A stretch of DNA of 64,000 nt, from NCBI RefSeq assembly GCF_015356755.1, contig NZ_JADFCO010000065.1:372001-436000 (forward strand). Reading direction: 5' to 3'. The DNA is from Nonlabens antarcticus (GTDB lineage: Bacteria > Bacteroidota > Bacteroidia > Flavobacteriales > Flavobacteriaceae). Positions 42 to 59,178 of the stretch are shown here, piece after piece. The notes beneath the pieces were generated by a model. It did no database searches, was not told the origin of the DNA, and worked only from the letters and a program-made list of their open reading frames with translations. Position 1 is the first letter of the stretch. Each line of letters begins with the position of its first letter. The translations under genes and the position numbers were made by a program.

Positions 42-61
42 TTCGCTTTCGCGAAAGCGAA
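42..61. repeat. Dispersed palindrome, copy 1 (extended 20 bp)
   Basis: Perfect inverted repeat TTCGCTTTCGCGAAAGCGAA with the common 16-bp core at 44-59. It lies downstream of the first DUF3078 gene, in a short stretch (1-98) with no recognisable gene. It belongs to the family described in the findings. Confidence 0.9.
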
Positions 62-98
62 CTTATCGGCATTTCAGCACCTAATTACACGCTTGATT

Positions 99-1004
99 CT
101 ATAACGTATAGCTCAATCCCAGTCCTGAAACCTCACGGATCTGGAAAGCTCCCACGGCATTATCATCATAGATGGCTTGAAAAATAAATTTAGCACTCAC
201 AAAATCGTTCACTTTCATTTTAATATGAGCGAGATAATTAATATCCACGTTTCCCGGACTCTTTAAATAATTTGAATACAAGGATAGTTTATTACCTATG
301 GTGATATTTTCTACAATGGTAAAGTTATAAGTTGCGTTAAGGGAAGCCCCTAGTTCATAACGTCGTTCCTGCCCAGCTGCAACGCCAAAATAGCTCTCAT
401 CCACATAGTCTGGCGCAGAGGTAAACTGATCATCAACCATGATTAAACGAGCGGTAGAAGGTGCTAGATTCAGAGTGAAAAAATCGCCTTTTTTATATAA
501 ATATCCAGGACCGGCCTGAATGTATCCAGGGGAAAAAAAGTTTGTACGTTCCTTGCGCTGCACAATGCCTAGACTGTCCTTTTTATAGGTATAACCTTTA
601 GTAGCCTGACTCATAGCATTAACAAAGAAGGAGTAATAAGCAGAATCATCTCCTTCATTTACTTCATATCCATAAACACTATTAAATTCAATACGATCAT
701 TTGTTTTACGGGTAAAACGATCTTCATCTTGTTTAGTCAATCCGTATTCAACAATCAATGAATTTTCCCATCGGGCGCGATTCTCTGTATAGTTCAATTC
801 AATATTTGCATTGAGGTTTCCTGCGACACTTGACGTCCCACCACCTGTCCAGTTATTATTGAAAGCAGATTGATTGAATAAAAATTGAAAAGTTCCAGTA
901 TTATTCCAACCGTTAACTGGTTGGTTCTCATCGTCCCCTGCGTCCTGAGAAAGGGCAGGACTAACAACCATAAGCATTAAAATAAAGCACATCCAGAACT
1001 TCAT
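99..1004 (-). CDS. DUF3078 domain-containing outer-membrane protein
   Basis: This 301-residue protein has an N-terminal signal peptide (about residues 1-19, ending ALSQ). Alternating polar and aromatic strands follow and the chain ends in an aromatic/Leu residue pattern (LSYTL), as expected for an outer-membrane beta-barrel. The DUF3078 hallmark NQSAFNNNWTGGG lies at about residues 44-56. The family is common in Bacteroidota and has no established function. The next gene upstream is a clear paralogue sharing the same hallmark and the C-terminal IYDDNAVGAFQIRE segment, so the pair is a tandem duplication. It sits at the distal end of the suf region. A -7 box (TATCTTTG) 24 bases upstream of the ATG suggests its own promoter. 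Confidence 0.85.
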   Translation of the reverse strand: MKFWMCFILMLMVVSPALSQDAGDDENQPVNGWNNTGTFQFLFNQSAFNNNWTGGGTSSVAGNLNANIELNYTENRARWENSLIVEYGLTKQDEDRFTRKTNDRIEFNSVYGYEVNEGDDSAYYSFFVNAMSQATKGYTYKKDSLGIVQRKERTNFFSPGYIQAGPGYLYKKGDFFTLNLAPSTARLIMVDDQFTSAPDYVDESYFGVAAGQERRYELGASLNATYNFTIVENITIGNKLSLYSNYLKSPGNVDINYLAHIKMKVNDFVSAKFIFQAIYDDNAVGAFQIREVSGLGLSYTL

Positions 1005-1028
1005 AGGTATATATTTTACTATCTAGCG

Positions 1029-2163: not shown

Positions 2164-2673
2164 TTATTTAGGCTTTTTAAATACAGGAACAGAAGAACAC
2201 GCCTCACCATACATAACGCTACTTGCTACGCTTTTCAGCTTGTTAGTAATCATCATATAGGCAGCAACTGGAACCGGTTTTTTAGAGCAACCTTTAACAA
2301 TAACCGGCAAGTTTTCAAAATGAGATAAATCTAAATCTTTGATAATATCACGATAGATCTCTGTCTCTAAATCTTCAAGAGTACCGTAAACTATAGTTGC
2401 TGCATAACTTGAAACTTCCGCTTGAAGGAGCATCCATGCCCACGGTGGTATTATCGCGTTCGTACTACAGTTAAGGGCGACATGATGATTTTGATAAACG
2501 GAGAAGTCTGTGGTTTTTACGCTTTCGCGAAAGCGGGATTCAACCAGCACTAAACCTTCCATTAACCACTGGGAAACATCAATCTCAATGCGCGTGCCTG
2601 GCGCATAATAATCCTCGAGATCAAAGTTCTTGAGTTTAGAATTAGCCACTCTATTGATGATTTCTTCTCTCAT
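2164..2673 (-). CDS. DUF2480 family protein
   Basis: This 169-residue soluble protein matches the DUF2480 family, typically found beside suf genes in Bacteroidota and of unknown function. It has no signal peptide or membrane segment. Visible features are an acidic N-terminal half, the segment AIIPPWAWMLLQAEV and a basic C-terminus with KGCSKKPVPVAAYMM. It starts one base after the stop of the DUF59 gene, so it is probably co-transcribed with sufE and DUF59. The dispersed palindrome lies inside the gene (2520-2535) and is read as RFRES. A role linked to Fe-S biogenesis is inferred from context only. Confidence 0.8.
   Translation of the reverse strand: MREEIINRVANSKLKNFDLEDYYAPGTRIEIDVSQWLMEGLVLVESRFRESVKTTDFSVYQNHHVALNCSTNAIIPPWAWMLLQAEVSSYAATIVYGTLEDLETEIYRDIIKDLDLSHFENLPVIVKGCSKKPVPVAAYMMITNKLKSVASSVMYGEACSSVPVFKKPK
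2520..2535. repeat. Dispersed palindrome, copy 2, in DUF2480 CDS
   Basis: Exact CGCTTTCGCGAAAGCG inside the coding region, read on the minus strand as RFRES. Confidence 0.9.
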
Positions 2674-2674
2674 A

Positions 2675-6712: not shown

Positions 6713-6730
6713 TCGCTTTCGCGAAAGCGA
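6713..6730. repeat. Dispersed palindrome, copy 3
   Basis: Exact core CGCTTTCGCGAAAGCG at 6714-6729 with T and A extending the symmetry, in the sufC-sufD gap. Confidence 0.9.
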
Positions 6731-10410: not shown

Positions 10411-10426
10411 CGCTTTCGCGAAAGCG
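10411..10426. repeat. Dispersed palindrome, copy 4
   Basis: Exact CGCTTTCGCGAAAGCG in the sufA-sufB gap. Confidence 0.9.
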
Positions 10427-12296: not shown

Positions 12297-13049
12297 TTAA
12301 TCGATGAAAGACAGTTTTTCCATAATTTCCTGTGGATGCGTGATTAGACTCATGTGACCAGAATCTAATTCCACGCATGATGCACTTAGGATATTAATCT
12401 CCTCTTTTATCGTTTTTTTTAGAATAACCGTATCGTGCGACCCGTAAAAATAGGCAACAGCAAACCTTGAATATGTTAAGGCATCGACTTGGGAATTTCT
12501 ATCTCGCATGGCTCCTATGGCTTGTTTAATACTACCGGTTGACATCTTCTGCGCCTCTGTCTTCATTTGATCGATGGCGTGTTGATAAGTTTGTCTTTCC
12601 GTTTTGGAAAATAGATTACCGATAGCCATGCTCAGAAAAGCGTCAGGGTATTTCTCAATAAGTTTTATAGACCGGTTGCGTTGTGATTTTCTATCGTCTG
12701 AATCATCTGCCGCGCAACTGTTAATTAAGTGGAGAGATAATAATTTTTCAGAGTTCGCTTTCGCGAAAGCGCAACCCACATAACCTCCCATACTATGACC
12801 TATAAAATGAATGGCCGTAATTTTATATTGCTGCAATATAGTGTTGATGCTGTCTGCAACATCCATGATGGTGTAATCACAAGTCTCATTACTGTCGCCG
12901 TGACCTGGAAGATCTACCATCAGAATCTGATGAGTTCCCTTAAAATGATCAGCGATCATTTTCCATTGTTTCGAACTGCCTAAAAACCCATGTAAAAATA
13001 AAATGGTAGAACCAGAACCGGATATCAATTGATGGGAAAGCTGTAACAT
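12297..13049 (-). CDS. Alpha/beta-fold hydrolase
   Basis: This 250-residue cytoplasmic hydrolase has the oxyanion-hole motif FLHGFLGSSKQW at 18-29, the nucleophile elbow GHSMGG with Ser86, and a C-terminal His in ELDSGHMSLITHP near residue 234, completing a Ser-Asp-His triad (Asp probably near 206 in YFYGSHDTV). The HGFLGSS start recalls MenH-like and esterase members, but the substrate is unassigned. The dispersed palindrome lies right after the nucleophile elbow and is read as AFAKA (residues 94-98). A -7 box lies 19 bases before the ATG. Confidence 0.85.
   Translation of the reverse strand: MLQLSHQLISGSGSTILFLHGFLGSSKQWKMIADHFKGTHQILMVDLPGHGDSNETCDYTIMDVADSINTILQQYKITAIHFIGHSMGGYVGCAFAKANSEKLLSLHLINSCAADDSDDRKSQRNRSIKLIEKYPDAFLSMAIGNLFSKTERQTYQHAIDQMKTEAQKMSTGSIKQAIGAMRDRNSQVDALTYSRFAVAYFYGSHDTVILKKTIKEEINILSASCVELDSGHMSLITHPQEIMEKLSFID
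12756..12771. repeat. Dispersed palindrome, copy 5, in hydrolase CDS
   Basis: Exact CGCTTTCGCGAAAGCG, read on the minus strand as AFAKA, eight residues after the catalytic serine. Confidence 0.9.
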
Positions 13050-15042: not shown

Positions 15043-15058
15043 CGCTTTCGCGAAAGCG
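15043..15058. repeat. Dispersed palindrome, copy 6
   Basis: Exact CGCTTTCGCGAAAGCG between the convergent EEP and DUF5689 genes. Its position between two 3' ends would allow a hairpin in both transcripts. Confidence 0.9.
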
Positions 15059-19483: not shown

Positions 19484-19544
19484 AGTTAGATTTTACCTTA
19501 AGAGTTTGTCAAAGCACAGACATAAACGCAAAAAAACCGATGTA

Positions 19545-20621
19545 ATGCTTAAATATTTGATTTGTAGTATTTTAATTTATTTCGCTTTCGCGAAAGCGAT
19601 GCTTGCTCAAACCGAAGCAACTAAAGAGTATCGAGTGCAAACGGTAGCGTTTTATAATCTTGAGAATCTTTTTGACACTGTTGATGATGTAACATTGAAT
19701 GACGAGGCCAGCCCAATGATGGAGCTCGATCCAGGTATTAGAGAGGAAGTTTACGACAAGAAATTGACTAACATGGCGCGCGTTATCCGCAAATTAGGCG
19801 CTGAGAAATCTGAGTCGGCACCAGCCATTGTTGGGGTCTGTGAGGTAGAAAATCGTAAGGTCCTTGTGGATCTTGTCAATCATCCATTACTTAAAGAATT
19901 TGATTATGGGATCGAGCATTTTGAATCTCCAGACCGTCGCGGTATTGACACTGGGTTTGTATATAGGAAGAGCGAGTTCAGGATTTTAAACGCTGCCTCA
20001 AAAGAGCTGTTTATTTATGATACAGAAGATGGGCATCGCATCTATACCCGCAGCCCAATTATAGTAACTGGCGAACTCAACGGTGATAAAATGACCTTTA
20101 TTGTCAATCACTGGCCGTCCCGTAGCGGTGGTGAACAGAAAAGTCGCAGTAAGCGTAATGCCGCTGCTGCATTGAACAAAGCGATCGTTGATAGCTTGCA
20201 CAGTATCGATGCCATGTCTAAAATATTTATCATGGGAGATTTCAATGATGATCCTACAAATGAGAGTCTCAAGGATATTCTAAAGGCAGAAAGAGACCGC
20301 GAGAAAATAAGACCGCAAATGATCTATAATCCATATAGTCAGATGCATAAAGATGGTTACAACACTCTAGCTTACAGAGATTCTGGAAATTTGTTTGATC
20401 AAATTACGTTTACCTATCCTTTACTGCAGGAAGCACAACAAACGGGTTATAAATACTGGCAGGCACATATCTACAATCCTGGGTTTTTGACTAATAAAAC
20501 AGGACGATATAAAGGATACCCGCACCGCAGTTTTATAGGGAATGTTTTTGCCGATGGTTACAGCGATCACTTCCCGGTTTTTGTTTATCTGGTAAGGGAA
20601 ATTAAAACAGGAAAAAAGTAA
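19545..20621 (+). CDS. Secreted EEP-family phosphoesterase/nuclease
   Basis: About 358 residues. From the ATG at 19545 the protein starts with a signal peptide (MLKYLICSILIYFAFAKAML, cleavage near AQ), so it acts outside the cytoplasm. EEP motifs are FYNLENLFD, GVCEVENRKVL, HWPSRSGGE, MGDFNDDPTN and YSDHFPVFV. An in-frame TTG 39 bases upstream would add a very basic n-region (KHRHKRKK) and is possible given the promoter position. The end of the signal peptide is encoded by the dispersed palindrome. It is homologous to the EEP gene at 14032 and diverges from the TonB receptor; a role in breaking down extracellular nucleic acid or phosphoesters is inferred. Confidence 0.88.
   Translation: MLKYLICSILIYFAFAKAMLAQTEATKEYRVQTVAFYNLENLFDTVDDVTLNDEASPMMELDPGIREEVYDKKLTNMARVIRKLGAEKSESAPAIVGVCEVENRKVLVDLVNHPLLKEFDYGIEHFESPDRRGIDTGFVYRKSEFRILNAASKELFIYDTEDGHRIYTRSPIIVTGELNGDKMTFIVNHWPSRSGGEQKSRSKRNAAAALNKAIVDSLHSIDAMSKIFIMGDFNDDPTNESLKDILKAERDREKIRPQMIYNPYSQMHKDGYNTLAYRDSGNLFDQITFTYPLLQEAQQTGYKYWQAHIYNPGFLTNKTGRYKGYPHRSFIGNVFADGYSDHFPVFVYLVREIKTGKK
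19583..19598. repeat. Dispersed palindrome, copy 7, in signal peptide
   Basis: Exact CGCTTTCGCGAAAGCG encoding AFAKA in the signal peptide of the secreted EEP protein. Confidence 0.9.
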
Positions 20622-23401: not shown

Positions 23402-23417
23402 CGCTTTCGCGAAAGCT
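23402..23417. repeat. Dispersed palindrome, copy 8 (15/16)
   Basis: CGCTTTCGCGAAAGCT, one mismatch at the last base, in the divergent region between lipoprotein B and metG. Confidence 0.85.
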
Positions 23418-23500: not shown

Positions 23501-25588
23501 ATGAGCAAACAACAACGATTTACGATTACTGCGGCGCTGCCATATACAAATGGACCCGTTCATATAGGACATCTTGCCGGCGTTTACGTTCCAGCAGATA
23601 TTTATGCACGTTACCAGCGATTGAAAGGTAATGATGTCGCTTTTATTTGTGGAAGTGATGAACATGGCGTGCCTATCACCTTGAAGGCTAAAAAAGAAGG
23701 TGTTTCCCCTCAGGAAATCGTAGATCGTTATCATAAAATAATAGGAGATTCCTTTGCCGAATTTGGTATTTCATTTGACAATTACAGCCGTACCACAGCG
23801 CAGGTTCATCATGATACCGCCAGTGATTTCTTTACCAAATTATACGACAACGGCAAATTTATAGAGCAGGTCACAGAACAATTGTATGACCCAGAAGCAA
23901 ACCAGTTTCTAGCTGATAGATTTGTAGTAGGAACTTGTCCCAAATGTGGAAATCCAGAATCCTATGGCGATCAATGTGAGCGTTGCGGCACCAGCCATAA
24001 TGCAACAGATTTGATCGAACCTAAAAGCGCCATTACAGGAAATGTTCCTGAACTAAAGGAAACTAAACACTGGTTTTTACCACTGGATCAATACAGCGAC
24101 TGGTTGAATGAGTGGATTGTGGAAGGTCATGCCAATGACTGGAAAACAAATGTTCTAGGTCAGGTAAAAGGCTGGATCACAGATGGTTTAAAGCCACGCG
24201 CGGTAACCCGCGATCTGGACTGGGGAATCCCAGTTCCCGTGGAAGGTGCTGACGGAAAGGTTCTTTACGTTTGGTTTGACGCACCCATAGGTTATATTTC
24301 TTCTACTAAGGAATGGGCAGAACGGGAAGGTAAGAATTGGGAGGATTACTGGAAAAACGAGGATACTAAACTGCTACATTTTATAGGTAAGGACAACATT
24401 GTTTTTCACTGTATCATCTTTCCTGCGATGTTAAAGGCCCACGGCGAGTTCATCCTGCCAGATAATGTTCCTGCAAACGAGTTCTTGAATCTTGAAGACG
24501 ATAAAATTTCCACATCACGCAATTGGGCGGTGTGGTTGCATGAATACCTCGAGGATTTCCCGGGACAACAGGATGTACTGCGATATGTGTTGACCACAAA
24601 CGCACCAGAAACCAAAGACAATAACTTTACCTGGAAAGATTTTCAGGCGCGAAATAATAATGAGCTGGTCGCAATTTTAGGTAATTTCATAAACCGCGCG
24701 CTCGTATTGACACACAAATATTACGATGGGGTTGTGCCAGAAGCTGGGGAGTTCACTCAAGTGGACAAAGAGACGCTAGCAGCGGTTCAAGCATTTCCAG
24801 CAAGCATAGAAAGCAGTTTAGAACGTTACCGCTTCCGTGAAAGCGCAAGCGAATTTATGAACCTAGCCAGACTAGGAAACAAATACCTAGCCGATGAAGA
24901 ACCCTGGAAAGTCATCAAAACTGATCCAGAACGTGTGAAAACAGTAATGTTTGTAGGCCTACAAATTGCGGCAGCACTAGCTATTCTTGCTGAGCCTTTC
25001 CTGCCTCACACCGCAAAAAAACTTCAAGACATGCTGAACATCGCATCAAATCCTGCAGCCCGATTGCGTGCCGATTTGGTTAAAATCGAGTGGAACGATG
25101 TTTCTGAAAAGCAGGAATTACTACACCACGGCTACAAAATCAATCCAGCCGAATTGCTATTCTCAAAAATTGAGGATGAACAAATAGAAGCTCAGCTTGC
25201 AAAATTGGAAGCTACAAAAGCATCCAATAAATCCACAACACCTAATCTTATGCCACAGAAAGAAGAAACCAACTACGATGATTTTATGAAAATGGACCTG
25301 CGCGTAGGAGAGATCCTAACAGCAGAAAAATTGCCAAAATCCAATAAGTTGATGGTCATGACCGTAGACACTGGAATAGATAAAAGGACCATCGTTTCAG
25401 GAATCGCTAAATTTTTCACTGCAGAGGAATTGGTTGGAAAAAAAGTAACCGTTCTCGCAAATCTCGCACCCAGAAAATTAATGGGCGTAGAATCCCAAGG
25501 AATGATTTTACTTGCGGAAGACCCAGAAGGGAAATTGGTTTTTGTGAATCCAGATGATGCGGTTGTGAATGGGGCTACGATAGCATAG
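23501..25588 (+). CDS. metG: Methionyl-tRNA synthetase
   Basis: This 695-residue class I synthetase attaches methionine to tRNA-Met. HIGH signature at 21-24 (PVHIGH), zinc knuckle CPKCG followed by CERCG near residues 147-164, KMSKS-type loop KISTS near 333-337, an anticodon-binding helical domain, and a C-terminal EMAP/Trbp111-like tRNA-binding domain (about 590-695, MDLRVGEIL and [23 protein letters not shown]). The full-length, two-part architecture is standard. A two-mismatch version of the palindrome is embedded at 24830-24845 (RFRES). A hairpin terminator follows immediately. Confidence 0.97.
24830..24845. repeat. Degenerate palindrome copy in metG (14/16)
   Basis: CGCTTCCGTGAAAGCG, two mismatches to the core, read as RFRES. 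It could be a decayed copy or coincidence. Confidence 0.5.
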
Positions 25589-27853: not shown

Positions 27854-29998
27854 ATGAAACATTTTTCAGTCGCTGTAATTGCCGTTGCGTTAACACTAAC
27901 CAGCACGGTAACAGCACAAAACAAACAGCCGCAGGACACGACCAAAGCGGAAAAACTCAACGAGATCGTTCTTAAAGCCACCAGGGTTACTAAGGATAAC
28001 CCGGTCACATTCTCAAACGTGACTAAGGAAGATCTTAAATCTAGAAACCTGGGTCAGGACCTTCCCATTTTACTAAGTTACTTGCCTAACGTAGTCACCA
28101 CCAGCGACGCTGGTGCGGGAATAGGCTATACGGGAATACGGGTGCGAGGCAGCGATGCCACTAGGGTTAATGTGACACTCAATGGGGTTCCTTATAATGA
28201 CTCAGAATCACAAGGAACATTCTGGGTAAACCTTCCAGATTTTGCTAGCAGTGTAGAGAGCTTGCAATTGCAACGTGGTGTAGGTACAAGTACAAACGGT
28301 AGCGGCGCATTCGGTGCGAGTTTGAATATCAAAACCACAGACTACAGTGAAGAGGCTCAGGTTGCTGTTTCAAACTCCATAGGATCCTTCAATTCTAGAA
28401 AACATAGTATTCAGTTCACTACCGGACTCCTCGATGATCGTTGGGAATTTAATGGACGTGCGTCACAAGTTTATAGTGATGGGTTTATCGATCGCGCTGA
28501 TAGCAACCTGAAATCCTACTATATTTCTGGAGCTTATGTGGGTGATAAAACGCTTATAAAAGCGACTATTTTTGGTGGTCAGGAACGCACCTATCAAGCC
28601 TATTATGGAGTTGATCTAGAAACATTAAAAACGAATCGTACGGCAAATTTCGCTGGGTTTTATATTGATGCCGCCGGCAACGAGAAATTTTATAATGATC
28701 AAGTAGATAACTACAATCAAGATCATTATCAGCTTTTATTAAGTCATAGGTTTAATAATAACTGGAGCGCCAGTGCCACCGTTCATTATACAAAGGGAAG
28801 AGGATATTTCCAGGAACTTCAAGACGACGCCCGACTGACAAGATACAACTTGCCCACTTTTACAAATAACGGACAACTTGTGGAACGCAGTGATCTGGAA
28901 ACCAGACGCTGGTTAGACAATGAATTCTATGGGATTGTCTCAAATTTAAATTACAAAAACAGCGTTGTGGATGCCAGTTTTGGACTTGCTGCTAACCAGT
29001 ATGATGGCCTTCACTATGGAGAAGTTTTAGCCGGTGAATTTATCCAGCTGCCAGAACGATCTTTCCGGTATTATAGTAATGTTTCTGATAAGCAGGAATA
29101 TAACGCTTTCGCGAAAGCGAACTTTACAATTACAGAGAAACTATCCCTTTTTGCAGACTTACAAATGAGATTGATAAGCTATGAAACTCTAGGTCCAGAT
29201 TCTAAAATAGCCAATTTTGTAACTGACGAGGATTATGCGTTTTTTAATCCTAAAGCGGGAGCGGTTTATAATGTCAACGCCAGTAATAGAATTTATGCTA
29301 GTATCGCAAGAGCGCAACGCGAGCCCAGCCGTTCTGATTTTAAGGACGGCACGCCAGAACCGGAAGATTTACTAGATTACGAACTGGGTTATCGCATTTC
29401 AAAACCAGATTTCAATATCAATATCAACGGGTATTTTATGGACTATAAAAACCAGCTGGTGCTCACGGGAGCGATTGATGATAATGGTACGCCATTGCGA
29501 ACTAACTCTGGGGATAGTTACCGGCTAGGTCTGGAAATAGATGCCCAGTTCAGGGTTACGGACAAGATATTCCTACAACCTAATTTTGCCGTGTCGCGCA
29601 ATCAGAATCAGGATTTTATCAACGATGAAAACGGAACCCCTACCAACATAGGCGACACAGAAATTGCCTATTCACCATCCATAGTGGCAGGAAATGCACT
29701 GACTTATAAGTTTAATGAAGGTTTTGAGGTCTCCTTACTTTCTAAGTATGTGGGTTCACAGCAACTGGATAATACAGAAAATGCTATTTCACAATTAGAA
29801 GGCTATTTTGTGAGCGATTTCAATGCGCAATACATTTGGACGCCTAAAAATTTAGTAAAAGAAGTGGCGTTTAGTGTTTTGGTAAACAATATTCTTGATG
29901 AAGAATATTCCTCGAACGGTTACGCATTTCCAGGATCTGTTTTTGTGTTTCCGCAGGCTCGGATTAATTTTTTGACTGGAGTTACCGTTACTTTTTAG
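27854..29998 (+). CDS. TonB-dependent receptor, predicted thiamin uptake
   Basis: About 714 residues from the ATG at 27854, which begins the signal peptide MKHFSVAVIAVALTLTSTVTAQ; the frame is open 33 bases upstream but without a signal. The plug shows KEDLKSRNLGQDLPILLSYLPNVV, GIRVRGSDATRVNVTLNGVPYND and LQLQRGVGTSTNGSGAFG; the barrel ends FLTGVTVTF with terminal Phe. Lacks the carboxypeptidase-like N-terminal domain. The TPP riboswitch upstream makes thiamin or a thiamin precursor the likely substrate. A palindrome copy sits in the barrel (AFAKA). A bidirectional terminator follows. Confidence 0.93.
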   Translation: MKHFSVAVIAVALTLTSTVTAQNKQPQDTTKAEKLNEIVLKATRVTKDNPVTFSNVTKEDLKSRNLGQDLPILLSYLPNVVTTSDAGAGIGYTGIRVRGSDATRVNVTLNGVPYNDSESQGTFWVNLPDFASSVESLQLQRGVGTSTNGSGAFGASLNIKTTDYSEEAQVAVSNSIGSFNSRKHSIQFTTGLLDDRWEFNGRASQVYSDGFIDRADSNLKSYYISGAYVGDKTLIKATIFGGQERTYQAYYGVDLETLKTNRTANFAGFYIDAAGNEKFYNDQVDNYNQDHYQLLLSHRFNNNWSASATVHYTKGRGYFQELQDDARLTRYNLPTFTNNGQLVERSDLETRRWLDNEFYGIVSNLNYKNSVVDASFGLAANQYDGLHYGEVLAGEFIQLPERSFRYYSNVSDKQEYNAFAKANFTITEKLSLFADLQMRLISYETLGPDSKIANFVTDEDYAFFNPKAGAVYNVNASNRIYASIARAQREPSRSDFKDGTPEPEDLLDYELGYRISKPDFNININGYFMDYKNQLVLTGAIDDNGTPLRTNSGDSYRLGLEIDAQFRVTDKIFLQPNFAVSRNQNQDFINDENGTPTNIGDTEIAYSPSIVAGNALTYKFNEGFEVSLLSKYVGSQQLDNTENAISQLEGYFVSDFNAQYIWTPKNLVKEVAFSVLVNNILDEEYSSNGYAFPGSVFVFPQARINFLTGVTVTF
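29104..29119. repeat. Dispersed palindrome, copy 9, in TonB receptor CDS
   Basis: Exact CGCTTTCGCGAAAGCG read as AFAKA within a barrel strand. Confidence 0.9.
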
Positions 29999-32569: not shown

Positions 32570-32585
32570 CGCTTTCGCGGAAGCG
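32570..32585. repeat. Dispersed palindrome, copy 10 (15/16)
   Basis: CGCTTTCGCGGAAGCG, one mismatch, 34 bases before the greA start codon. Confidence 0.8.
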
Positions 32586-39960: not shown

Positions 39961-40179
39961 ATGAAAAAAGGATTAATTTTTATTGTATTTGTGTTGTTTT
40001 CCGCTTTCGCGAAAGCGCAATGCGCCATGTGTCGAGCCGTCATTGAGAGTGGTGGAAGTACTGCCGAAGCTGAAGGTTTAAACAGCGGAATCACCTACTT
40101 AATGATATTTCCATACCTACTGGTAGGAGGTATTATTTATATGATCTACCGAGGTACTCAAAAGAAGAGTTCGAATTAA
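39961..40179 (+). CDS. Small CxxC membrane protein in oxidase cluster
   Basis: This 72-residue protein has a signal peptide ending AFAKA-Q, encoded by the dispersed palindrome. The mature N-terminus begins QCAMCRAVIESGG, a CxxC pair, and a single transmembrane helix follows (about 45-63, YLMIFPYLLVGGIIYMIYR). After cleavage the CxxC pair sits almost at the membrane-exposed N-terminus, suitable for metal or thiol exchange. It lies six bases after DUF420 and is the last gene of the oxidase cluster. Function unknown; a copper-related role is inferred from position. Confidence 0.75.
   Translation: MKKGLIFIVFVLFSAFAKAQCAMCRAVIESGGSTAEAEGLNSGITYLMIFPYLLVGGIIYMIYRGTQKKSSN
40002..40017. repeat. Dispersed palindrome, copy 11, in signal peptide
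   Basis: Exact CGCTTTCGCGAAAGCG encoding AFAKA at the predicted cleavage site of the small CxxC protein. Confidence 0.9.
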
Positions 40180-44717: not shown

Positions 44718-46154
44718 ATGAAGAATTTAATTACATGCATTGCGGTTCTAGGATGTTTCGCTTTCGCGAAAGCGCAAACACAAAGAGTATGGACACTACA
44801 AGAGTGTATTCAATACGCAATTGAAAATAACATCAGCATCAAACAAGCAGACTTGAACATCGAGACTGTTAAAATTGATAAACGAGGCGCCATAGGAAAT
44901 TTTCTTCCGACGTTGAATGGATCTGTAAATAACTCATGGAATACCGGTCTTACACAAAATATTACTACCGGTGTTTTACAGACGCAAGTGACTAGGAACT
45001 CTAGTTACAACGTGACGGCGGGAGTGACGTTATTTGATGGACTCGCTAACTTGTACCGTTTGCAGCGTGCTAAAATGAATATTCTAGCAAGCCAATACGA
45101 TGCAGAGCAACTGGAAGATAACATCCTTTTAAATGTATCAAACTCTTATTTGAACGTACTTTTTAATAAGGAAAATTTAAAACAATTAGAGATTCAGCAT
45201 CAAATTTCTACGGAGCAAATTGAACGTACGGAGCAATTAGTGGAGGCAGGAAGTTTACCGCGCGGAGATTTACTTGAAATCCAAGCTACTTTTGCCGATG
45301 AGGAGCAAAGAATTATTGCTGCTAAAAACTCGATTCTTATTTCACGCATCACCTTAGCTCAAATTTTGAACCTAAAAGAATATGAAAACTTTGATGTAGT
45401 TGATCCAGATCTAACGGATCCTAATGGATTTATTATTGATGAGGGAGTGAATGCGATTTATCAAGCGGCACAAGAAGAAAGATACGAAGTCAAAATTGCT
45501 GAGCAGAATACCGCCATTGCAGAAAAGGATTTGAAGATAGCTAGAGCAGCGATCCTTCCTACTCTAGATGCATTTTTGAATTATAATACAAGAGAATCAG
45601 ATCAGGGAAGAACCTCTTCTTTTTTAGACCCAGATCAACCTACCAGACAGATAGGTGTTGTGGAGGGTTCAGGAGAATCAGTCGTTGCTCCTAATTTTAC
45701 TGGAAGCATCGGTAGTCCGCGACCATTTTTTGAGCAGTTGTACCGTAATGATGGTATCTCTTATGGACTACAATTGCGTGTGCCCATTTTCAACGGTTTT
45801 AACGTTAGTAATAATATTGCTAAGAGTAAAATTAATGTTGAAAATAGCAGATTGCTGGAGAGTCAAGCAAAGCTAGATTTAGAACGCAATATCTATCAAG
45901 CCTATAATGATGCTGTAGGAGCAAAGGCTACATTTGAGAGCTCTTCCAAGGCGCTGGAAGCCCGTCAACAAGCTTTTGAATATGCACAAGCACGATATGA
46001 CGTGGGATTGCTTAATGCTTTTGATTTTAATCAAGCGCAGGCACAGCTAACAAACGCTCAAAGTACGATGTTAAGAAATAAGTACGATTATATTTTCAAA
46101 ATCAAAGTGTTGGAATTGTTTAAGGGTGCCCAGCCTAATGAACTCAAATTATAG
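44718..46154 (+). CDS. TolC family outer-membrane efflux protein
   Basis: This 478-residue protein has a signal peptide ending CFAFAKAQ, whose last part is the dispersed palindrome. Two OEP repeats follow: WTLQECIQYAIENNISIKQADLN at about 27-49 and QVPIFNGF-like RVPIFNGFNVSNNIAKSKINVEN in the second half, each with long coiled-coil helices and the LFDGLANLYRLQRAK turn. It forms the exit duct for the adaptor-permease complex encoded around it. It lies 54 bases after the first adaptor and three bases before the second. Confidence 0.94.
   Translation: MKNLITCIAVLGCFAFAKAQTQRVWTLQECIQYAIENNISIKQADLNIETVKIDKRGAIGNFLPTLNGSVNNSWNTGLTQNITTGVLQTQVTRNSSYNVTAGVTLFDGLANLYRLQRAKMNILASQYDAEQLEDNILLNVSNSYLNVLFNKENLKQLEIQHQISTEQIERTEQLVEAGSLPRGDLLEIQATFADEEQRIIAAKNSILISRITLAQILNLKEYENFDVVDPDLTDPNGFIIDEGVNAIYQAAQEERYEVKIAEQNTAIAEKDLKIARAAILPTLDAFLNYNTRESDQGRTSSFLDPDQPTRQIGVVEGSGESVVAPNFTGSIGSPRPFFEQLYRNDGISYGLQLRVPIFNGFNVSNNIAKSKINVENSRLLESQAKLDLERNIYQAYNDAVGAKATFESSSKALEARQQAFEYAQARYDVGLLNAFDFNQAQAQLTNAQSTMLRNKYDYIFKIKVLELFKGAQPNELKL
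44759..44774. repeat. Dispersed palindrome, copy 12, in TolC signal peptide
   Basis: Exact CGCTTTCGCGAAAGCG encoding AFAKA just before the predicted cleavage site. Confidence 0.9.
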
Positions 46155-49520: not shown

Positions 49521-49565
49521 ATAAATCTTCTTATTTAAAAGAAGCTCAATAAGTTTGCTTAAAGT

Positions 49566-49766: not shown

Positions 49767-49826
49767 AATAATTATAGTTTTAAATTTATTAAGCTTTAAT
49801 ATAATAAATTAAATAGAATAAGGAGC

Positions 49827-50564: not shown

Positions 50565-50643
50565 TTCTTTTAATTTCTAAAATAGCTTCATAAATCATAC
50601 CAATAAGTTCACCTTTTGATAGCAAGAGTATGCCTATCTAAAC

Positions 50644-51378
50644 TTAATCTGTACGAATGGAAGAATAATATTTTGTCGTTGCTATTAGGCCTGTCAGATC
50701 GTTTTCAAACTCAATGCTATTGATTTTTATATACTCCTGCAATCTATTATTTAATGAAGTTGAAAACTCTTTACTAACTCTTTTATTATTGTTTTTTACC
50801 TCAATAGCGATACCCTTATTGGTAATAAAAATAAAAGTCTCTTCTGTTTTTATCCTAGGATTTCTGGGAGATGAATAACTAGATTCACTAATCGATAGCG
50901 ATTGTTTAACCTCTTGTGTGCGCAATAAAGCTAACATGTCACCATTTTCATAAGACGCAATAATTTCTACATAAGATGACTTCTTGCCTCTCATTTCAAA
51001 CTCTAGAAACAAAAAAGTTCTCCCTTCCATAACTATCAAAAGGTCTGGTCTCTTCGGTAAAAGCAACACTTCATCTATTTTGCTGGATTTCATATTCATT
51101 GAGCCAGCATAGATGTTGTAGTTTAATTCTAGTAGAGTAGGTTGCTTAGGGTTACTTTTAGAATAAACTTTGGCGGGAACATAAGTAGCAAAAAGAAATG
51201 GATCACCATCCACATCATTGGTCGCAATGTATTTGCGCGTGGTAAGGTCAGAGTCTTGAAACGTTTGCAAATCAATAGACTGCCCTGAAAAGGATGCGCC
51301 TTGATGAAAGTTTTGTGCGTAAACAATCTCACTTATTAAAAGTAACGTGACTAAGACTAAAAGTTTAAAACCTTTCAT
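50644..51378 (-). CDS. Secreted protein of the YYSS-tail family (member 3)
   Basis: This 244-residue protein has a signal peptide ending VYAQ (about residue 22). It shares with member 2: DLQTFQDSDLTTR, DGDPFLFATYVPAKVY, ELNYNIYAGSMNMK, LPKRPDLLIVMEGRTFLFLEFE, YVEIIASYENGDMLALLRT, NPRIKTEETFIFITNKGIAIEV and the end KYYSSIRTD. No lipobox. The gene is 52 bases from the NifU-like gene upstream, possibly the same transcript. Function unknown. Confidence 0.75.
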   Translation of the reverse strand: MKGFKLLVLVTLLLISEIVYAQNFHQGASFSGQSIDLQTFQDSDLTTRKYIATNDVDGDPFLFATYVPAKVYSKSNPKQPTLLELNYNIYAGSMNMKSSKIDEVLLLPKRPDLLIVMEGRTFLFLEFEMRGKKSSYVEIIASYENGDMLALLRTQEVKQSLSISESSYSSPRNPRIKTEETFIFITNKGIAIEVKNNNKRVSKEFSTSLNNRLQEYIKINSIEFENDLTGLIATTKYYSSIRTD

Positions 51379-51429
51379 ATCAGTCTAAGATACAACTGTC
51401 ATTAATTATCGACAACGATATCAATAAAA

Positions 51430-52338
51430 TTAGCCGTTAATAGCCACAACGCGCTGTATTTTGCCAGGTATCATGTCCTTCATCATCGTTTCAATTCCAT
51501 TGCGCAGCGTCATAGTAGAACTAGGACAGCCACTGCAAGCACCTTGTAGAATTACGTTTACTTCTTGTGTCTCCTCATTATAACTGTCAAAAACTATATT
51601 CCCACCATCGCTCGCTACGGCTGGGCGTACGTACTCGTCTAGAATCTCAACAATTTTTTTAGAAACATCACTCAAGTTCTCAAACTTAGGCAAATCCATG
51701 CTTTCCCCAGTCTGCTTCACTGTTCCAGACGTGTATTTAGAAACGCCTATTTCATCCCCTGTTTCAATTCCTTCTTTAATAAAAGACCTGATTTGATTTG
51801 TAACTTCCTGCCATTCTACAATATCATGTTTGTGAACAGAGATGTAGTTTTCATCTACGTACAATTCTTTTACAAATGGAAATTGATATAGCTTTCGCGA
51901 AAGCGAACCAGCTTCGGTATCCTCAATCGTTTTAAACTCTTGACTGGCAAGAACTAATTTTTTATTAGCCACGTATTTCATCACGGCTGGGTTAGGAGTG
52001 GCCTCTGCATAAACGGTCACAGGTGTTTTCTTGACCTCTTTTTCGTCAGGTAACAACGGTTTTCCACTATTTAAGTATTCTTCTATTTGCGCGGAAACTT
52101 CATCTTGAATATCATTCCATTCTATAATATCGTAACGTTCTATTGCAATAAAATTTTGAGCGATATAAACCGTTTTTACGAAAGGAAGATAAAACAATTG
52201 TTGCGCTAGCGGTGATGGCTTTGCATCATCAATATTTTTGAACTCATAGCTGTGGTTTTTAACCAGAAACTCGGTACTTTCAAACTTTACGATAGAATCA
52301 TTAGTAGTAGGAACTACTTTTATAGTATGTGTACTCAT
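51430..52338 (-). CDS. NifU family Fe-S protein with duplicated N-terminal domain
   Basis: About 302 residues from the ATG at 52338; the frame is open to 52383 but a -7 box at 52357 lies between. Two Nfu_N domains occur in tandem, one with SPLAQQLFYLPFVKTVY and one with GSLSRKLYQFPFVKELY, followed by a C-terminal NifU domain with the cluster-binding CSGCPSS. NifU/Nfu proteins hold and transfer Fe-S clusters, so it complements the suf system at the other end of the window. A palindrome copy encodes LSRK in the second Nfu_N domain. YYSS member 3 follows. Confidence 0.9.
   Translation of the reverse strand: MSTHTIKVVPTTNDSIVKFESTEFLVKNHSYEFKNIDDAKPSPLAQQLFYLPFVKTVYIAQNFIAIERYDIIEWNDIQDEVSAQIEEYLNSGKPLLPDEKEVKKTPVTVYAEATPNPAVMKYVANKKLVLASQEFKTIEDTEAGSLSRKLYQFPFVKELYVDENYISVHKHDIVEWQEVTNQIRSFIKEGIETGDEIGVSKYTSGTVKQTGESMDLPKFENLSDVSKKIVEILDEYVRPAVASDGGNIVFDSYNEETQEVNVILQGACSGCPSSTMTLRNGIETMMKDMIPGKIQRVVAING
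51890..51905. repeat. Dispersed palindrome, copy 13 (15/16), in NifU-like CDS
   Basis: AGCTTTCGCGAAAGCG, one mismatch in the first base, read in the third possible frame as LSRK. Confidence 0.85.
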
Positions 52339-52356
52339 GGCTTTTAATTCAGGTAA

Positions 52357-52364
52357 CAAAGATA
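52357..52364 (-). promoter_or_regulatory. -7 box for NifU-like gene
   Basis: Minus-strand TATCTTTG, 18 bases before the ATG at 52338; TTG lies 16 bases upstream of it. Confidence 0.45.
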
Positions 52365-52481
52365 GATAGGATGGATGGAACAATTAAGGACTGATGAATG
52401 TTATACCTTATAACTATATATTTAATTTAAATCCAGCACGCTAACAATGATGGGCTTCATAATTATCTAGTCATAATATGA

Positions 52482-53577: not shown

Positions 53578-54123
53578 TTGTCAGAAACAAGAAAACTTCT
53601 TAACGACGAGCTGGAGCGGCTTTCAACAGATCGCTTTCGCGAAAGCGAAAAAACACCTTTAGTAATCGTGCTTGACAACGTGCGCAGTCTTAATAATGTA
53701 GGCAGCATTTTTCGTAGTGCAGATGCATACAGAGTAGAAAAAATCTACCTGTGTGGGATCACAGCACAACCACCACATCGAGAAATCCGAAAAACAGCCT
53801 TGGGAGCGACGGAATCTATATCTTGGGAATATGTTGAAAATACTATCGAGGTAATTCAAAAATTAAACTCCAGTGGTTATCAAACTTGTGCGATAGAACA
53901 AGCAGAGCGTTCTGAAAATCTATTTCACTTTTCACCAAAACTAAACTCCAAAGTCGCTATAGTTCTAGGGAATGAAGTGAACGGCGTATTGCAAGAAGTT
54001 GTTGATGCTTGCGACACGGTCATAGAACTGGATCAATATGGAACAAAACACAGTTTAAACATCGCGGTTTGTGCTGGTATCGTAATCTATGATATTTTCA
54101 ATAAAATCAGCCCGCTGCGATAG
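53578..54123 (+). CDS. TrmH/SpoU family RNA 2'-O-methyltransferase
   Basis: This 181-residue protein has the SpoU fold motifs: LVIVLDNVRSLNNVGSIFRSADAYRVEKIYLCG split near residues 29-58, then KVAIVLGNEVNGV and the knot end ELDQYGTKHSLNIAVCAGIVIYD. It uses S-adenosylmethionine to methylate ribose in tRNA or rRNA; target unknown. The start is TTG at 53578; no ATG precedes the conserved region. A palindrome copy near the N-terminus is read as RFRES. The 3' end overlaps the convergent folK fusion gene by 17 bases. Confidence 0.9.
   Translation: MSETRKLLNDELERLSTDRFRESEKTPLVIVLDNVRSLNNVGSIFRSADAYRVEKIYLCGITAQPPHREIRKTALGATESISWEYVENTIEVIQKLNSSGYQTCAIEQAERSENLFHFSPKLNSKVAIVLGNEVNGVLQEVVDACDTVIELDQYGTKHSLNIAVCAGIVIYDIFNKISPLR
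53631..53648. repeat. Dispersed palindrome, copy 14, in TrmH-type CDS
   Basis: Core CGCTTTCGCGAAAGCG at 53632-53647, exact, with symmetric T and A, read as RFRES. Confidence 0.9.
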
Positions 54124-55588: not shown

Positions 55589-58270
55589 ATGAAGAAGTTT
55601 TTTAAAGTATTGGGAATCGTGGTTTTGTTACTGGTCGTGGTAGTTATTGCCGCGCCGTTCGTTTTTCAAGATCAAATCGCACAGGTCGTAAAGGACAAAC
55701 TGAACGAGTCACTGGATGCTCAGGTTGAATTTGGAGACGTAGATTTGAGCTTCATTAGGGCGTTTCCTGATGCGCGTTTGAAAATCAAGAAATTGTCCAT
55801 TGTCAACAAGGCGCCATTTGCCGGCGACACCTTATTTTATGCAAATGAAACCTATCTGGACATGCCACTTTTCGACGTTTTCAATAATGCGAGTGAGCCC
55901 ATCCGCATTAATGAATTGATTGTTGATGGTGCCGTGGCGAGACTTAAAGTGGATGAAAATAATGCGTCCAACTGGGATATCGCTTCCGCGAAAGCGGAAA
56001 AAAATCAACCTCAAGACACGTCATCAGGATTCAATCTCGATCTAAAATACTACGAGATCAAGAATTCAGAGCTTTCCTATGAAGATGCAATTTCAAAAAA
56101 CCGTCTCGTTCTATCCGGTTTACAACATAGTGGTAACGGTGATTTTTCCCTAAAATCCAGTACGCTGGACACAAAAACCACTGCCAGAGTGATCTACAGC
56201 CTTGACGGTGTTGAATATTTGTCGGGCCAAAGTGTAAATCTGGATGCAGATATCCTAATGGATCTTGAAAACCAGAAATACACGCTTGAGGATAATAAAG
56301 CCTTGATTAATGACCTGGAGCTAGAACTTGCTGGATACATTGATTTGGAAGAAGATTACACGATGGTAGATCTGACATTTAAAGCACCATCATCGGACTT
56401 TAAAAACTTTTTTGCGATCATTCCAGAAACATATCGATCTAACTTAGAAGGCATCACTACGACCGGAGACTTTGTGGTAAATGGGATTATTAAAGGTCAG
56501 GTTACAGATGAATTGATACCAACGCTGGACATCACTGCGAAATCAAACAATGCTTCCTTTCAATATCCAGACCTGCCACAAAAAGTGACTAACATTTTCA
56601 TTGATGCACAGTTGCTTAATACTACTGGAAAAGTGGAAGATACTTATCTGAATATTGCAAACACCGCCTTCAACATAGGGAAAGATCGTTTAGAAGGTCG
56701 AGCGATGATTACAGATTTAACCAGCAATATGAAGGTGGATCTGAATGCTAACGGAAATCTAGACCTAGGAAATCTTTCCCAATCTTTTCCGCTTCCAGAA
56801 GATATGGATCTTGATGGACGACTAGCATTAGATATTGCAGCGCAATTTGACATGGAAAGTATCGAGAAAGAACGTTATGAGCGTGTCAATACAAAAGGAA
56901 CCGCAACATTAACTGACTTTAAATACATAGGATCTGCGTTTAAGAGTCCGTTTTTGATCAGACGAACCGATATTGATCTTAATACTTCCACGATTAAGTT
57001 AAATAGTTTTGATGCTATCACGGGAAATACGGACATCAAGGCGAGCGGTACGATCAATAACCTAATAGGCTTTTTGTTGCAGGATCAAGGCTTGAAAGGG
57101 AACTTTAAAGTTAATTCCAACAGTTTTGACGTGGGTGATTTTATGGAGGAATCCACAGAAGTGGCTTCGGCAAATCAGACGACCACTTCCAAAACTGAAG
57201 AAGCTGTGAAGATCCCAGCGTTTTTAGATGCTAATCTGGACTTCAATTTAAAAGAAGTAAGATACGACGGATTAATCCTTAAAAATGTTCAGGGAATAGC
57301 AGCAATTAGAGATGAAACACTCACGATGAGCGATGTGCGCAGTGATATATTTGGCGGAGCAATCGGCCTTGCGGGAATGGTAACGACAAAAGGCTCAAGT
57401 CCTAAATTCAATATGAATTTAAACATGGACAATCTAGACATTTCTCAAGCCTTTGCAGGATTTGAAATGTTCCAACAATACGTCCCTTTATTGAAGGCGT
57501 TGCAGGGAAGGATAAATACCGATATTGAAATTAAGGGAGATCTTGCGAGCGACCTTTCTCCTATATTGACCAGCATAAATGGTGGCGCTCTGGCAGAGTT
57601 ATTGACTCGAGATATTCAAACGGGTGCAGCACCATTGTTGGATAAGCTTGATCAACAGTTATCTTTTATCAGTTTAAAAGATATTGATTTAAGTGATTTG
57701 AAAACCAAGTTAAAATTTCAGGACGGTGCCGTTCAGGTAAGTCCGTTTGATTTTAAGATCAAGGATATTGTTGTCACCGCCAGTGGTAAACACAGTCTTA
57801 CTAACGAGATGGACTACACAATGGATCTCAAACTGCCCGCAAAATATCTAGGAAAGGATGGAGCTTCACTCTTGTCAAAATTACAGGCTACCGATATTGA
57901 TAAAATGACCGTACCCTTACCCATTCGTTTTACTGGATCGTTTTCAAAACCTAATGTTCAAGTAAATTTAGAGTCTGCAGTTACAAATCTTACCAGCCAG
58001 ATTATAGAAATTCAAAAACAACGCTTAAAGGAAAAAGGAGAAGACGCTTTAGGCAATGCTATTGAAGACCTAACTTCAGGTAAAAACCCTCTTGGAGGAA
58101 TCAAAGATATTTTAAGCGGAAAAAAACCAGCTGTCAAAGATTCCACGGCCATAAAAAATATAACAGATACCATTAAAAAACCAGCAACTAAAGATCCCGT
58201 TAAAGAAACTGCAAGAAATTTGTTGCAGGGATTGCTGAAGAAAAAGAAGGATACGACTGGAAATAATTAA
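55589..58270 (+). CDS. AsmA-like C-terminal region protein
   Basis: This 893-residue protein has one N-terminal transmembrane helix (about 5-27, GIVVLLLVVVVIAAPFVFQ) and a very long periplasmic beta-rich domain of the AsmA/TamB-related group: NESLDAQVEFGDVDLSFIRAFPDARLKIKKLSIVNKAPF, split by loops, then DLRSDIFGGAIGLAGMV-like VRSDIFGGAIGLAGMV and a C-terminus with AMQVNLESAVTNL-like segments and a Lys-rich tail. Such proteins are thought to help move lipids to the outer membrane. A one-mismatch palindrome copy lies at residue 132 (ASAKA). Confidence 0.88.
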   Translation: MKKFFKVLGIVVLLLVVVVIAAPFVFQDQIAQVVKDKLNESLDAQVEFGDVDLSFIRAFPDARLKIKKLSIVNKAPFAGDTLFYANETYLDMPLFDVFNNASEPIRINELIVDGAVARLKVDENNASNWDIASAKAEKNQPQDTSSGFNLDLKYYEIKNSELSYEDAISKNRLVLSGLQHSGNGDFSLKSSTLDTKTTARVIYSLDGVEYLSGQSVNLDADILMDLENQKYTLEDNKALINDLELELAGYIDLEEDYTMVDLTFKAPSSDFKNFFAIIPETYRSNLEGITTTGDFVVNGIIKGQVTDELIPTLDITAKSNNASFQYPDLPQKVTNIFIDAQLLNTTGKVEDTYLNIANTAFNIGKDRLEGRAMITDLTSNMKVDLNANGNLDLGNLSQSFPLPEDMDLDGRLALDIAAQFDMESIEKERYERVNTKGTATLTDFKYIGSAFKSPFLIRRTDIDLNTSTIKLNSFDAITGNTDIKASGTINNLIGFLLQDQGLKGNFKVNSNSFDVGDFMEESTEVASANQTTTSKTEEAVKIPAFLDANLDFNLKEVRYDGLILKNVQGIAAIRDETLTMSDVRSDIFGGAIGLAGMVTTKGSSPKFNMNLNMDNLDISQAFAGFEMFQQYVPLLKALQGRINTDIEIKGDLASDLSPILTSINGGALAELLTRDIQTGAAPLLDKLDQQLSFISLKDIDLSDLKTKLKFQDGAVQVSPFDFKIKDIVVTASGKHSLTNEMDYTMDLKLPAKYLGKDGASLLSKLQATDIDKMTVPLPIRFTGSFSKPNVQVNLESAVTNLTSQIIEIQKQRLKEKGEDALGNAIEDLTSGKNPLGGIKDILSGKKPAVKDSTAIKNITDTIKKPATKDPVKETARNLLQGLLKKKKDTTGNN
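55981..55996. repeat. Dispersed palindrome, copy 15 (15/16), in AsmA-like CDS
   Basis: CGCTTCCGCGAAAGCG, one mismatch, read as ASAKA, so the frame is the same as AFAKA copies. Confidence 0.8.
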
Positions 58271-58383
58271 TTGACAGATCTTGCTGGTTTATCGCAAGGT
58301 CCCAAAAAGATAGTTCGTAACAATTTTTACTGAAATACAGTAATCAATAGAAGGACGGTCATTTCAAGCTTATTGTAGAGTCA

Positions 58384-59178
58384 TCAGTCCACATTCAAGT
58401 CTACTACAAAGCCCTCATGACTGCGTATATTCATGACTTTACCTCCTTCAAAAATGAAATATTGACCTTTGATACCCATGAGTTTTCCGCTGTGTTCCGG
58501 AGTTTTGGTCAGGTTTACTGAAGTGACTTTTTTAGGATATTCCAGCACGGGAAAGTGAATGTGTGTTTCTGTCGTTGCGGGTAATATAAATTCTCGAGCT
58601 TCCTGTGGGATGAGGTCGATTAAGCTTTCGCGAAAGCGTAACAAGTCCACATCCTCAATACTATTAGTTAACATTTTTCTCCAGTTCGTCTTGTCTGCAA
58701 CCTTTTCTTTCAAAGCGACCTCTGTAATTCCAGCCAGGTAGCGGTTGGGCGCTTCTACAATTGCCAGTGCTTCATGGGCGCCTTGATCGATCCAGCGCGT
58801 GGGGACTTGCGTTTTGCGTGTCACGCCTACTTTTATGTTGCTGGAGTTGGCGAGGTACACCATGTGTGGTTTAAGCTGCACTCGTTTTTCATATTCTAGA
58901 TCGCGGTCTTCTTCATCAAGATGTGCCCTGCTCAATTCTGGCTTTATAATCCACTCACCGGCTTGCGGGCTGCTGGAAAAGCAGTCGTAACAATAACCTT
59001 GTCGCCATATTTTTTTATCCAGGCCGCAATTGAGACATTCATTCGCAACGTGTTTTATGCTTATATGTTGACCCAGAAGCTGGTTGACATGCAGGAATTC
59101 GTCCTTGAATACCAAGTAATACTGGACAGTATCCTTTAATTCTGTTTGCATCTTGCGTATCGTGCCGCTTAGTACCAT
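58384..59178 (-). CDS. DUF2797 domain-containing protein
   Basis: About 264 residues from the ATG at 59178; the frame is open 147 bases further upstream but DUF2797 proteins begin at the GTIRKM segment and a -7 box (59219-59226) lies in between. Zinc-like cysteines are in NECLNCGLDKK and GYCYDCFSS. Conserved blocks HMVYLANSSNIKVGVTRKTQVPTRWIDQGA and LAIVEAPNRYLAG suggest a nuclease-like GIY-YIG-related core. Function is unknown. A palindrome copy near residue 184 is read as RFRES. Divergent from the GH3 gene. Confidence 0.85.
   Translation of the reverse strand: MVLSGTIRKMQTELKDTVQYYLVFKDEFLHVNQLLGQHISIKHVANECLNCGLDKKIWRQGYCYDCFSSSPQAGEWIIKPELSRAHLDEEDRDLEYEKRVQLKPHMVYLANSSNIKVGVTRKTQVPTRWIDQGAHEALAIVEAPNRYLAGITEVALKEKVADKTNWRKMLTNSIEDVDLLRFRESLIDLIPQEAREFILPATTETHIHFPVLEYPKKVTSVNLTKTPEHSGKLMGIKGQYFIFEGGKVMNIRSHEGFVVDLNVD
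58623..58638. repeat. Dispersed palindrome, copy 16 (15/16), in DUF2797 CDS
   Basis: AGCTTTCGCGAAAGCG, one mismatch, read on the minus strand as RFRES. Confidence 0.85.

Follow-up and report, generated by a model that had tools for sequence, protein, structure and literature searches.

Why does one 16-bp palindrome recur every few kilobases, within genes and between them, along a stretch of the Nonlabens antarcticus genome? The stretch analysed here, referred to as the window, is 64 kb long (C65:372001-436000 of the 3.27-Mb genome, G000) and contains 17 copies, 11 of them exact, five with one mismatch and one with two. In 100 dinucleotide-preserving shuffles of the window, the mean number of matches with up to three mismatches was 0.14 and the maximum one, in line with the rarity claimed in a first-pass annotation of this DNA, whose 17 coordinates and mismatch classes were all matched on our recount. 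We find that the palindrome is the core of an extended symmetric site that is evenly spaced, conserved, and present by the hundred in every Nonlabens genome analysed. We propose, with a probability of roughly 0.45, that it is the predicted binding site of a symmetric chromosome-organising or maintenance protein.

A genome-wide site with a sharp sequence threshold

Across the genome we count 480 exact copies, 667 with at most one mismatch and 734 with at most two, compared to 0, 0 and 6 for the reversed word at the same limits. The genome-wide count on which the first-pass annotation had staked its reading is thus far above chance, and the density amounts to about one site per 3.5-4 kb, or ~220 per Mb.

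The 16-mer sits at the centre of a longer dyad-symmetric site of ~50 bp. When 119 sites from G000 and 333 from a second Nonlabens genome (G020) are each counted on both strands, a symmetric base preference extends to ~25 bp on either side of the dyad; the symmetry of 18-20 bp noticed at first sight did reach past the core but was understated. The arms are T-rich and C-poor, with C avoided on the 5' arm. T is preferred at ~9.5-10.5, 13.5, 16.5 and 18.5-19.5 bp from the dyad, A at 11.5 bp and G at 21.5-22.5 bp. The sequence 5' of the core is G/T-rich on both strands, with a T-rich arm before the core and an A-rich arm after it, and the flank preference is similar in 290 genic and 162 intergenic sites.

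The site is nearly all-or-none. In 1.64 Mb of two genomes, places with 0, 1, 2, 3 and 4 mismatches number 332, 102, 24, 21 and 38, compared to means of 0, 0, 0.15, 9 and 71 for 20 shuffled palindromes and counts of 0, 0, 0, 31 and 134 for the reversed word. The excess of near-misses is clear at one and two mismatches, the count at three falls between both controls and there is a deficit at four. From this comparison we conclude that the site has a sharp sequence threshold.

Placement and spacing

Using a simple gene call based on open reading frames (ORFs), we placed 458 sites in contig C65 of G000 and in G020. Genes contain 292 of these (0.20 per kb) and the gaps between genes 166 (1.05 per kb), a 5.3-fold intergenic enrichment, and gap orientation makes little difference to density (convergent 1.19, tandem 1.04 and divergent 0.97 per kb). 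All three reading frames described in the first-pass annotation occur among the genic sites, although their use is unequal (AFAKA 171, RFRES 64, LSRK 57). Its view that the motif is maintained as DNA rather than as protein, and is a genome-wide mark at the level of the genus, holds.

Sites are spaced far more evenly than random sets. In 456 kb of G000 (119 sites) the coefficient of variation (CV) of the gaps is 0.446, compared to a mean of 0.99 and a lowest value of 0.73 in 5000 random sets, and only 2 gaps are shorter than 1 kb where 27 are expected. In 480 kb of G250, a motif-rich genome outside Nonlabens (138 sites), the CV is 0.58 against a lowest random value of 0.72, with 7 gaps below 1 kb against 34 expected. 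The evenness is unchanged when it is set against 3000 random sets that preserve the genic and intergenic shares. The variance-to-mean ratio of counts per 20 kb is 0.18 in C65 of G000 (22 bins) and 0.51 in G020 (59 stretches). Inspection by eye of 60 stretches spread over the G020 chromosome (339 sites, 1.19 Mb) shows no trend with respect to origin or terminus.

Conservation between species and the metG locus

We aligned 145 kb of C65 with G020 at 74% DNA identity. A G020 site stands at the same place for 38 of 41 G000 sites, and G020 has 10 extra; orthologous sites, the second test proposed in the first-pass annotation, are therefore conserved. Letter-identical sites make up 25/41, compared to 901/46,899 background 16-mers. 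Two of the three unshared G000 sites align without gaps in G020, where the sequence has 7 and 3 mismatches to the motif; the third lies in a gapped, ambiguous alignment with a G020 site 25-42 bp distant. We saw no sign of insertion; the first-pass annotation had likewise seen no transposase and no flanking repeats.

There are two possible site places at metG. In the window both are occupied, ~99 bp upstream of the gene (23402..23417, one mismatch) and within it (24830..24845, two mismatches, frame RFRES). The upstream place is occupied in 11 of 18 other Nonlabens loci (4 of the 18 repeat a genome), and the in-gene site is found in 13 of 107 other loci (two repeats), G234 and G250, the two motif-rich genomes outside Nonlabens, among them. 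With loci of identical MetRS counted once, 15 Nonlabens genomes (the window and 14 others) divide into six with the inner site only, five with the upstream site only, four with both, including the window, and none with neither; in the three other genomes with both, the upstream copy is imperfect. All 13 palindrome carriers read RFRES, with Ser, while all 94 loci lacking the palindrome have Ala or Gly instead (RFREA 90, RFREG 4). Ser is found exactly where the palindrome is present because GAA-AGC-G requires it. Thus a conserved protein residue differs exactly at the loci bearing the DNA signal (13/13 carriers, 0/94 others).

Sites in the window

By our own calls (ORFs of at least 120 aa), seven window sites lie between ORFs and ten inside them, which corrects an earlier split of six and eleven; none is assigned a strand. 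Besides the site upstream of metG, the intergenic ones are the exact copies at 44..59, 6714..6729 (with SUF-like genes around it, named by eye), 10411..10426, 15043..15058 (flanking ORFs convergent) and 40002..40017, and a copy with one mismatch at 32570..32585, for which the nearest G020 site is 25-42 bp off the aligned place. Exact copies inside ORFs are found at 2520..2535 (ORF 2164-2673, minus strand), 12756..12771 (12297-13049, minus), 19583..19598 (19506-20621, plus; frame AFAKA, close to the N-terminus), 29104..29119 (27821-29998, plus), 44759..44774 (44718-46154, plus) and 53632..53647 (53578-54123, plus). Those with one mismatch are at 51890..51905 (51430-52383, minus), 55981..55996 (55589-58270, plus) and 58623..58638 (58384-59325, minus). 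GC content, ~0.39 in the window overall, falls to 0.33 at 48001-52000.

Distribution in genomes, phages and islands

The other 22 Nonlabens genomes have 453-937 sites each (at most two mismatches; controls 0-6). The MetRS of the window is 92% identical to that of an uncultured Nonlabens and 80% to those of N. xylanidelens and others. Outside the genus, 13 genomes from 13 other genera of the family have 0-3 sites, except G033 with nine, all on one contig and spread over more than 100 kb, and 75 named MetRS loci contain a single site, with two mismatches. Among 397 family genomes only G234 (377) and G250 (879) are rich outside Nonlabens, the next highest having 27, and among 247 phylum genomes none except G000 has more than two exact copies. 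Some of the listed genomes with 8-27 copies have them clustered, for example G120 (21/21 in 78 kb) and G352 (8/8 in 69 kb); in G188 the 12 copies are scattered. A MetRS tree needs three changes of motif label and does not back G234 and G250 as sister groups of Nonlabens, although a single origin is still compatible. Site positions common to G250 and Nonlabens genes occur in 2 of 9 rows (8 distinct sites).

We also considered whether other genera have dialects of the palindrome. This comparison covered ten genera and 57 of the 75 named MetRS loci from outside Nonlabens, the rest having been set aside for short or vague records, and the palindromes it turned up are far weaker. The MetRS loci of Gillisia, Aequorivita and Tenacibaculum have repeated non-palindromic 10-mers of their own, for instance CTCGACTCCG in Gillisia. 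One locus (L118), from a metagenome-assembled genome titled Bifidobacterium breve, has a Flavobacterium-like metG, and its bin is contaminated or mislabelled.

Some phages have the site. In IMG/VR (2.9 million contigs) exact copies are found in 30 contigs and 41 stretches; in 19 of the 30 there is just one exact copy, and chance may account for some of these given the size of the collection. Four phage contigs have at least four sites with at most two mismatches (7 in 27.9 kb, 5 in 18.5 kb, 5 in 20.3 kb and 4 in 18.5 kb), at a density biased upward because the pieces were picked around matches. Ten proteins of such contigs were named with PHROGs, as tape measure, portal, major head, terminase, tail sheath, integrase, tail assembly chaperone and ATPase, and by our own reading these contigs are Mu-like. 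Pooled flanks of 26 exact phage sites, from contigs that are partly related, have the T preference. Comparison of related phages shows one site exact at 69% identity and another with two changes at 90%. We presume Nonlabens-like hosts for the motif-bearing phages.

No site is present in P12024S or P12024L, two phages that were isolated on Persicivirga sp. and are catalogued as Nonlabens phages; their best matches have 4 and 5 mismatches, and ~9 sites each would be expected at host density. Neither has an annotated integrase, and both encode their own annealing protein and exonuclease. P12024S has an annotated DNA methyltransferase. In P12024L (NC_018272), genes annotated as a beta-glucosyl-HMC-alpha-glucosyltransferase and as a protein with a 2OG-Fe oxygenase domain stand where P12024S has different ones, and judging from this gene content the DNA of P12024L is likely hypermodified.

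Palindrome-bearing islands of copper/heavy-metal efflux genes are found in several motif-poor Flavobacteriaceae: G033 (L024-L026), G122 (L027) and G131 (L028-L029). In L027 (C1:2820001-2840000) a cluster of sites lies amid the efflux genes, which were named by eye. The islands are ~76-78% identical between hosts, with many sites in common and others decayed or missing. A pair of sites 933 bp apart recurs and in G122 and G131 falls inside a 405-aa TolC-like gene. One aligned palindrome in G131 contains a repeat-like stretch just after its CGCG centre (L028 versus L024:2639).

A predicted chromosome-organising or maintenance site

The symmetry of the site, its 50-bp extent, its threshold, its even spacing and its presence in some mobile DNA fit a distance-dependent intracellular protein site; an uptake signal, a methylation mark and an inserted repeat each fit less well. 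In the mechanism we propose, each palindrome would be the core of a ~50-bp site bound by a symmetric protein (a dimer or more), which might serve the organisation or upkeep of the chromosome; it could, for instance, anchor loops, or it could load a DNA-processing machine or set limits to it. This role would require one good site every few kilobases, and selection would then act on the gaps: an isolated site would be retained nearly unchanged, and of two close sites either might decay. Long-resident DNA (the chromosome, conjugative islands, temperate phages) would be under the same selection, and fresh arrivals and lytic phages would be free to be site-less. We infer both the existence of the protein and its spacing-dependent role inside the cell. 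In support, a passage of Bakkali 2007 (PMC1939737) expects chromosome-compacting sequences to be evenly spaced and describes uptake sequences as not palindromic.

One candidate binder was ParB. ParB_N is matched in 23/23 Nonlabens genomes, with a single match in 20 of them, three in G000 and two each in G015 and G019. A canonical parS pair, 1.9 kb apart, is present in all five Nonlabens genomes searched, and parS matches with at most two mismatches occur in all 11 genomes (controls 0-4). Because Nonlabens has an ordinary ParB set and retains the canonical parS pair, ParB or Noc is unlikely to be the binder. Exclusion of sites from the surroundings of parS was rejected as well: gaps of 6.3-9.8 kb surround it in five Nonlabens, yet sites lie 133 bp (G002) and 19 bp (G250) from parS. 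Long ParB_N proteins (602-616 aa) are found in some Nonlabens (G000 at C66:20190 and C60:5491, also G015 and G019), and a further one in G033 (C18:76088) is inside a palindrome-bearing stretch, close to its edge. A hunt for the binder among unusually close proteins common to G250 and Nonlabens was abandoned because the sample was too small. Segregation or nucleoid binding, listed among several roles in the first-pass annotation, is the best fit as a function, with ParB an improbable agent of it.

Several observations weigh against our proposal. No cognate binding protein was found, the ParB_N search having returned ordinary ParB, and we know of no nucleoid protein with sites so numerous and so perfect. 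Redundant or degenerate sites have only weakly nearer neighbours, the median distance being 2417, 2349 and 1841 bp for sites with 0, 1 and 2 mismatches (237, 83 and 17 sites). Replacement of lost sites is thinly supported by the G000 and G020 pair: the nearest G020 site is 25, 647 and 2408 bp from the three G000-only sites, and for the 10 G020-only sites the distance to the closest G000 site is 42-3205 bp, exceeding 1.5 kb in 7 cases. This pair therefore does not demonstrate local replacement on a wholesale scale. At least 40 kb of G000 (C58:45601-85600, L300-L301) has no site with at most two mismatches. This stretch has lower GC and contains BREX-like (PglX- and BrxC-like) and conjugation/transfer genes, named by eye; absence is thus tolerated at least temporarily, and DNA acquired as an island can lack the site. 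None of 23 Nonlabens genomes matches the portal protein of one motif-bearing phage, which leaves that phage's host presumptive. Finally, even spacing might also come from uptake-driven replacement, and according to a passage of PMC2397512 neisserial uptake sequences are likewise highly conserved and rare in acquired DNA.

Alternative explanations

The strongest rival remains an uptake signal, which we consider unlikely. Competent Nonlabens would prefer palindrome-bearing DNA, and recombination would spread and repair the sites by molecular drive, as in Haemophilus and Neisseria. This is consistent with the near-perfect copies and the 5.3-fold intergenic enrichment, but known signals, in the account given in part of PMC1939737, are non-palindromic and less even than compaction sequences should be. 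The phased T/A-rich flanks recall the Haemophilus AT-tracts (a passage of PMC7811141), and the spacing could mirror recombination tract length, the spacing of the neisserial DNA uptake sequence (DUS) being equated with conversion fragment size in a passage of PMC2397512; the rarity of DUS in acquired DNA described there may be compared with the site-free island of G000. Transformation of Riemerella columbina is competed best by its own DNA, according to a section of PMC7965970. A ComEC-family protein is present in 20/20 genomes searched, but equally in the three motif-poor ones among them. The graded excess of near-misses that drive would leave is clear here at one and two mismatches and not at three or four, and some phage contigs bear the palindrome. 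We know of no demonstrated competence in Nonlabens. The likeness to uptake sequences drawn in the first-pass annotation may hold, but the Nonlabens motif departs from the published accounts of known uptake sequences that we read in its palindromic form, its near all-or-none threshold, its even spacing and its occurrence in some phage contigs.

The third reading, doubtful in our view and less probable than uptake, is a bidirectional Chi-like site. A helicase-nuclease at broken ends would read the palindrome from either direction, or would meet a hairpin in the unwound strand, and turn from degradation to repair, the spacing placing one site near any break. Known Chi sites are 5-8 nt, asymmetric and oriented, and a 16-bp core with a 50-bp footprint is larger than RecBCD or AddAB are known to read; the palindrome has no orientation, unlike the oriented signal to these enzymes. 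The even spacing, the G/T-rich sequence 5' of the core, a single strand that self-folds under RNA folding parameters, and the annealing protein and exonuclease of the site-less P12024S and P12024L all speak for such a site. The density of one per 3.5-3.8 kb is also near that of Chi in E. coli (1008 in 4.64 Mb, in a passage of PMC1939737).

Two further explanations are improbable. In the first, the palindrome would be a methylation mark as proposed for HIP1, with CGCG or TCGCGA at its centre as the target of a methyltransferase and sites accumulating through repair or epigenetic use. The site is palindromic, highly iterated, and both genic and intergenic, as HIP1 is in part of the account in PMC4390886. 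However, TCGCGA, the inner palindrome, shows no excess away from full sites (228 copies where 230 are expected), and 411 of 417 copies of TTTCGCGAAA fall in full sites. As partners, C5 and N6/N4 methylases were rejected on the two families searched, other methylase families lying outside the search: PF00145 (C5) is missing from 8/15 Nonlabens genomes, including G000 and G020, PF01555 from 5/15, and both from G007, G008 and G010. The likeness to HIP1 suggested earlier therefore does not extend to mechanism. In the second explanation, the palindrome would be a self-mark in defence: DNA running too long without it would be attacked, and temperate phages and islands would have adapted by bearing it. 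The motif in some phage contigs and islands agrees with this, and the base glucosyltransferase of P12024L and the DNA methyltransferase of P12024S could shield bare DNA, but the G000 chromosome tolerates its site-free stretch and we know of no defence system of this type.

Inserted mobile palindromes or intrinsic terminators are very improbable: the palindrome is short, repeated and able to fold, and it is enriched between genes, but 292/458 sites are genic, two of three unshared G000 sites are gapless in G020, each strand has its T-rich arm before the core and its A-rich arm after it, the order opposite to that of a terminator, and convergent gaps have no marked excess.

Significance and comparison with known systems

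Tentatively, and with slightly less confidence than in the binding site itself, we suggest that these sites may represent a new class of chromosome element: quasi-regular 50-bp symmetric anchors, one per 3.5-4 kb, with spacing itself under selection and a dedicated protein, which three flavobacterial genera would share and which their temperate phages and conjugative islands would have taken over. Our literature searches, only part of which used the motif letters themselves, found no description of the palindrome. If the suggestion is true, a bacterial genome would have a built-in, sequence-encoded period of organisation or maintenance. The even spacing makes selection on inter-site distance a testable claim, and the palindrome is so unusually sharp that its binder should be easily fished out. 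The site is also a possible ancestry marker, in that palindrome-bearing islands in other genera may derive from motif-rich hosts; several copies on a phage contig may likewise point to its likely host.

Chi, uptake sequences and HIP1 each raised or answered a question on a basic DNA process. HIP1 (GCGATCGC, cyanobacteria) is likewise a highly iterated palindrome, genic and intergenic, lineage-variable and unsettled in function, but it is 8 bp long with 300-2700 copies per Mb (in a passage of PMC4390886), compared to 16 bp within ~50 bp at ~220 per Mb in Nonlabens, and it has inner methylase sites with matching methylases where Nonlabens has neither enriched inner palindromes nor conservation of the two methylase families searched. 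The Haemophilus uptake signal sequence (USS) and neisserial DUS share hundreds of near-perfect copies, intergenic excess, core-genome conservation and, for USS, phased AT flanks. They are asymmetric, according to a passage of PMC1939737, whereas the Nonlabens site is a perfect palindrome with a sharp cut-off and very even spacing and is found in some phage contigs. The parS and Noc sites resemble it in their TTTC...GAAA halves and, for parS, in being a 16-bp palindrome, but there is one parS pair per Nonlabens genome (five searched) compared to 450-940 copies of the palindrome, whose half-sites are 2 bp closer. Chi has a similar density and is likewise chromosome-wide, but is short and oriented where the Nonlabens site is long and symmetric. 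Lastly, repetitive extragenic palindromic (REP) sequences and bacterial interspersed mosaic elements (BIMEs) are also palindromes repeated hundreds of times in a genome, but REPs lie between genes and exceed the 16-bp Nonlabens motif in length, whereas most copies of the Nonlabens motif are found within genes.

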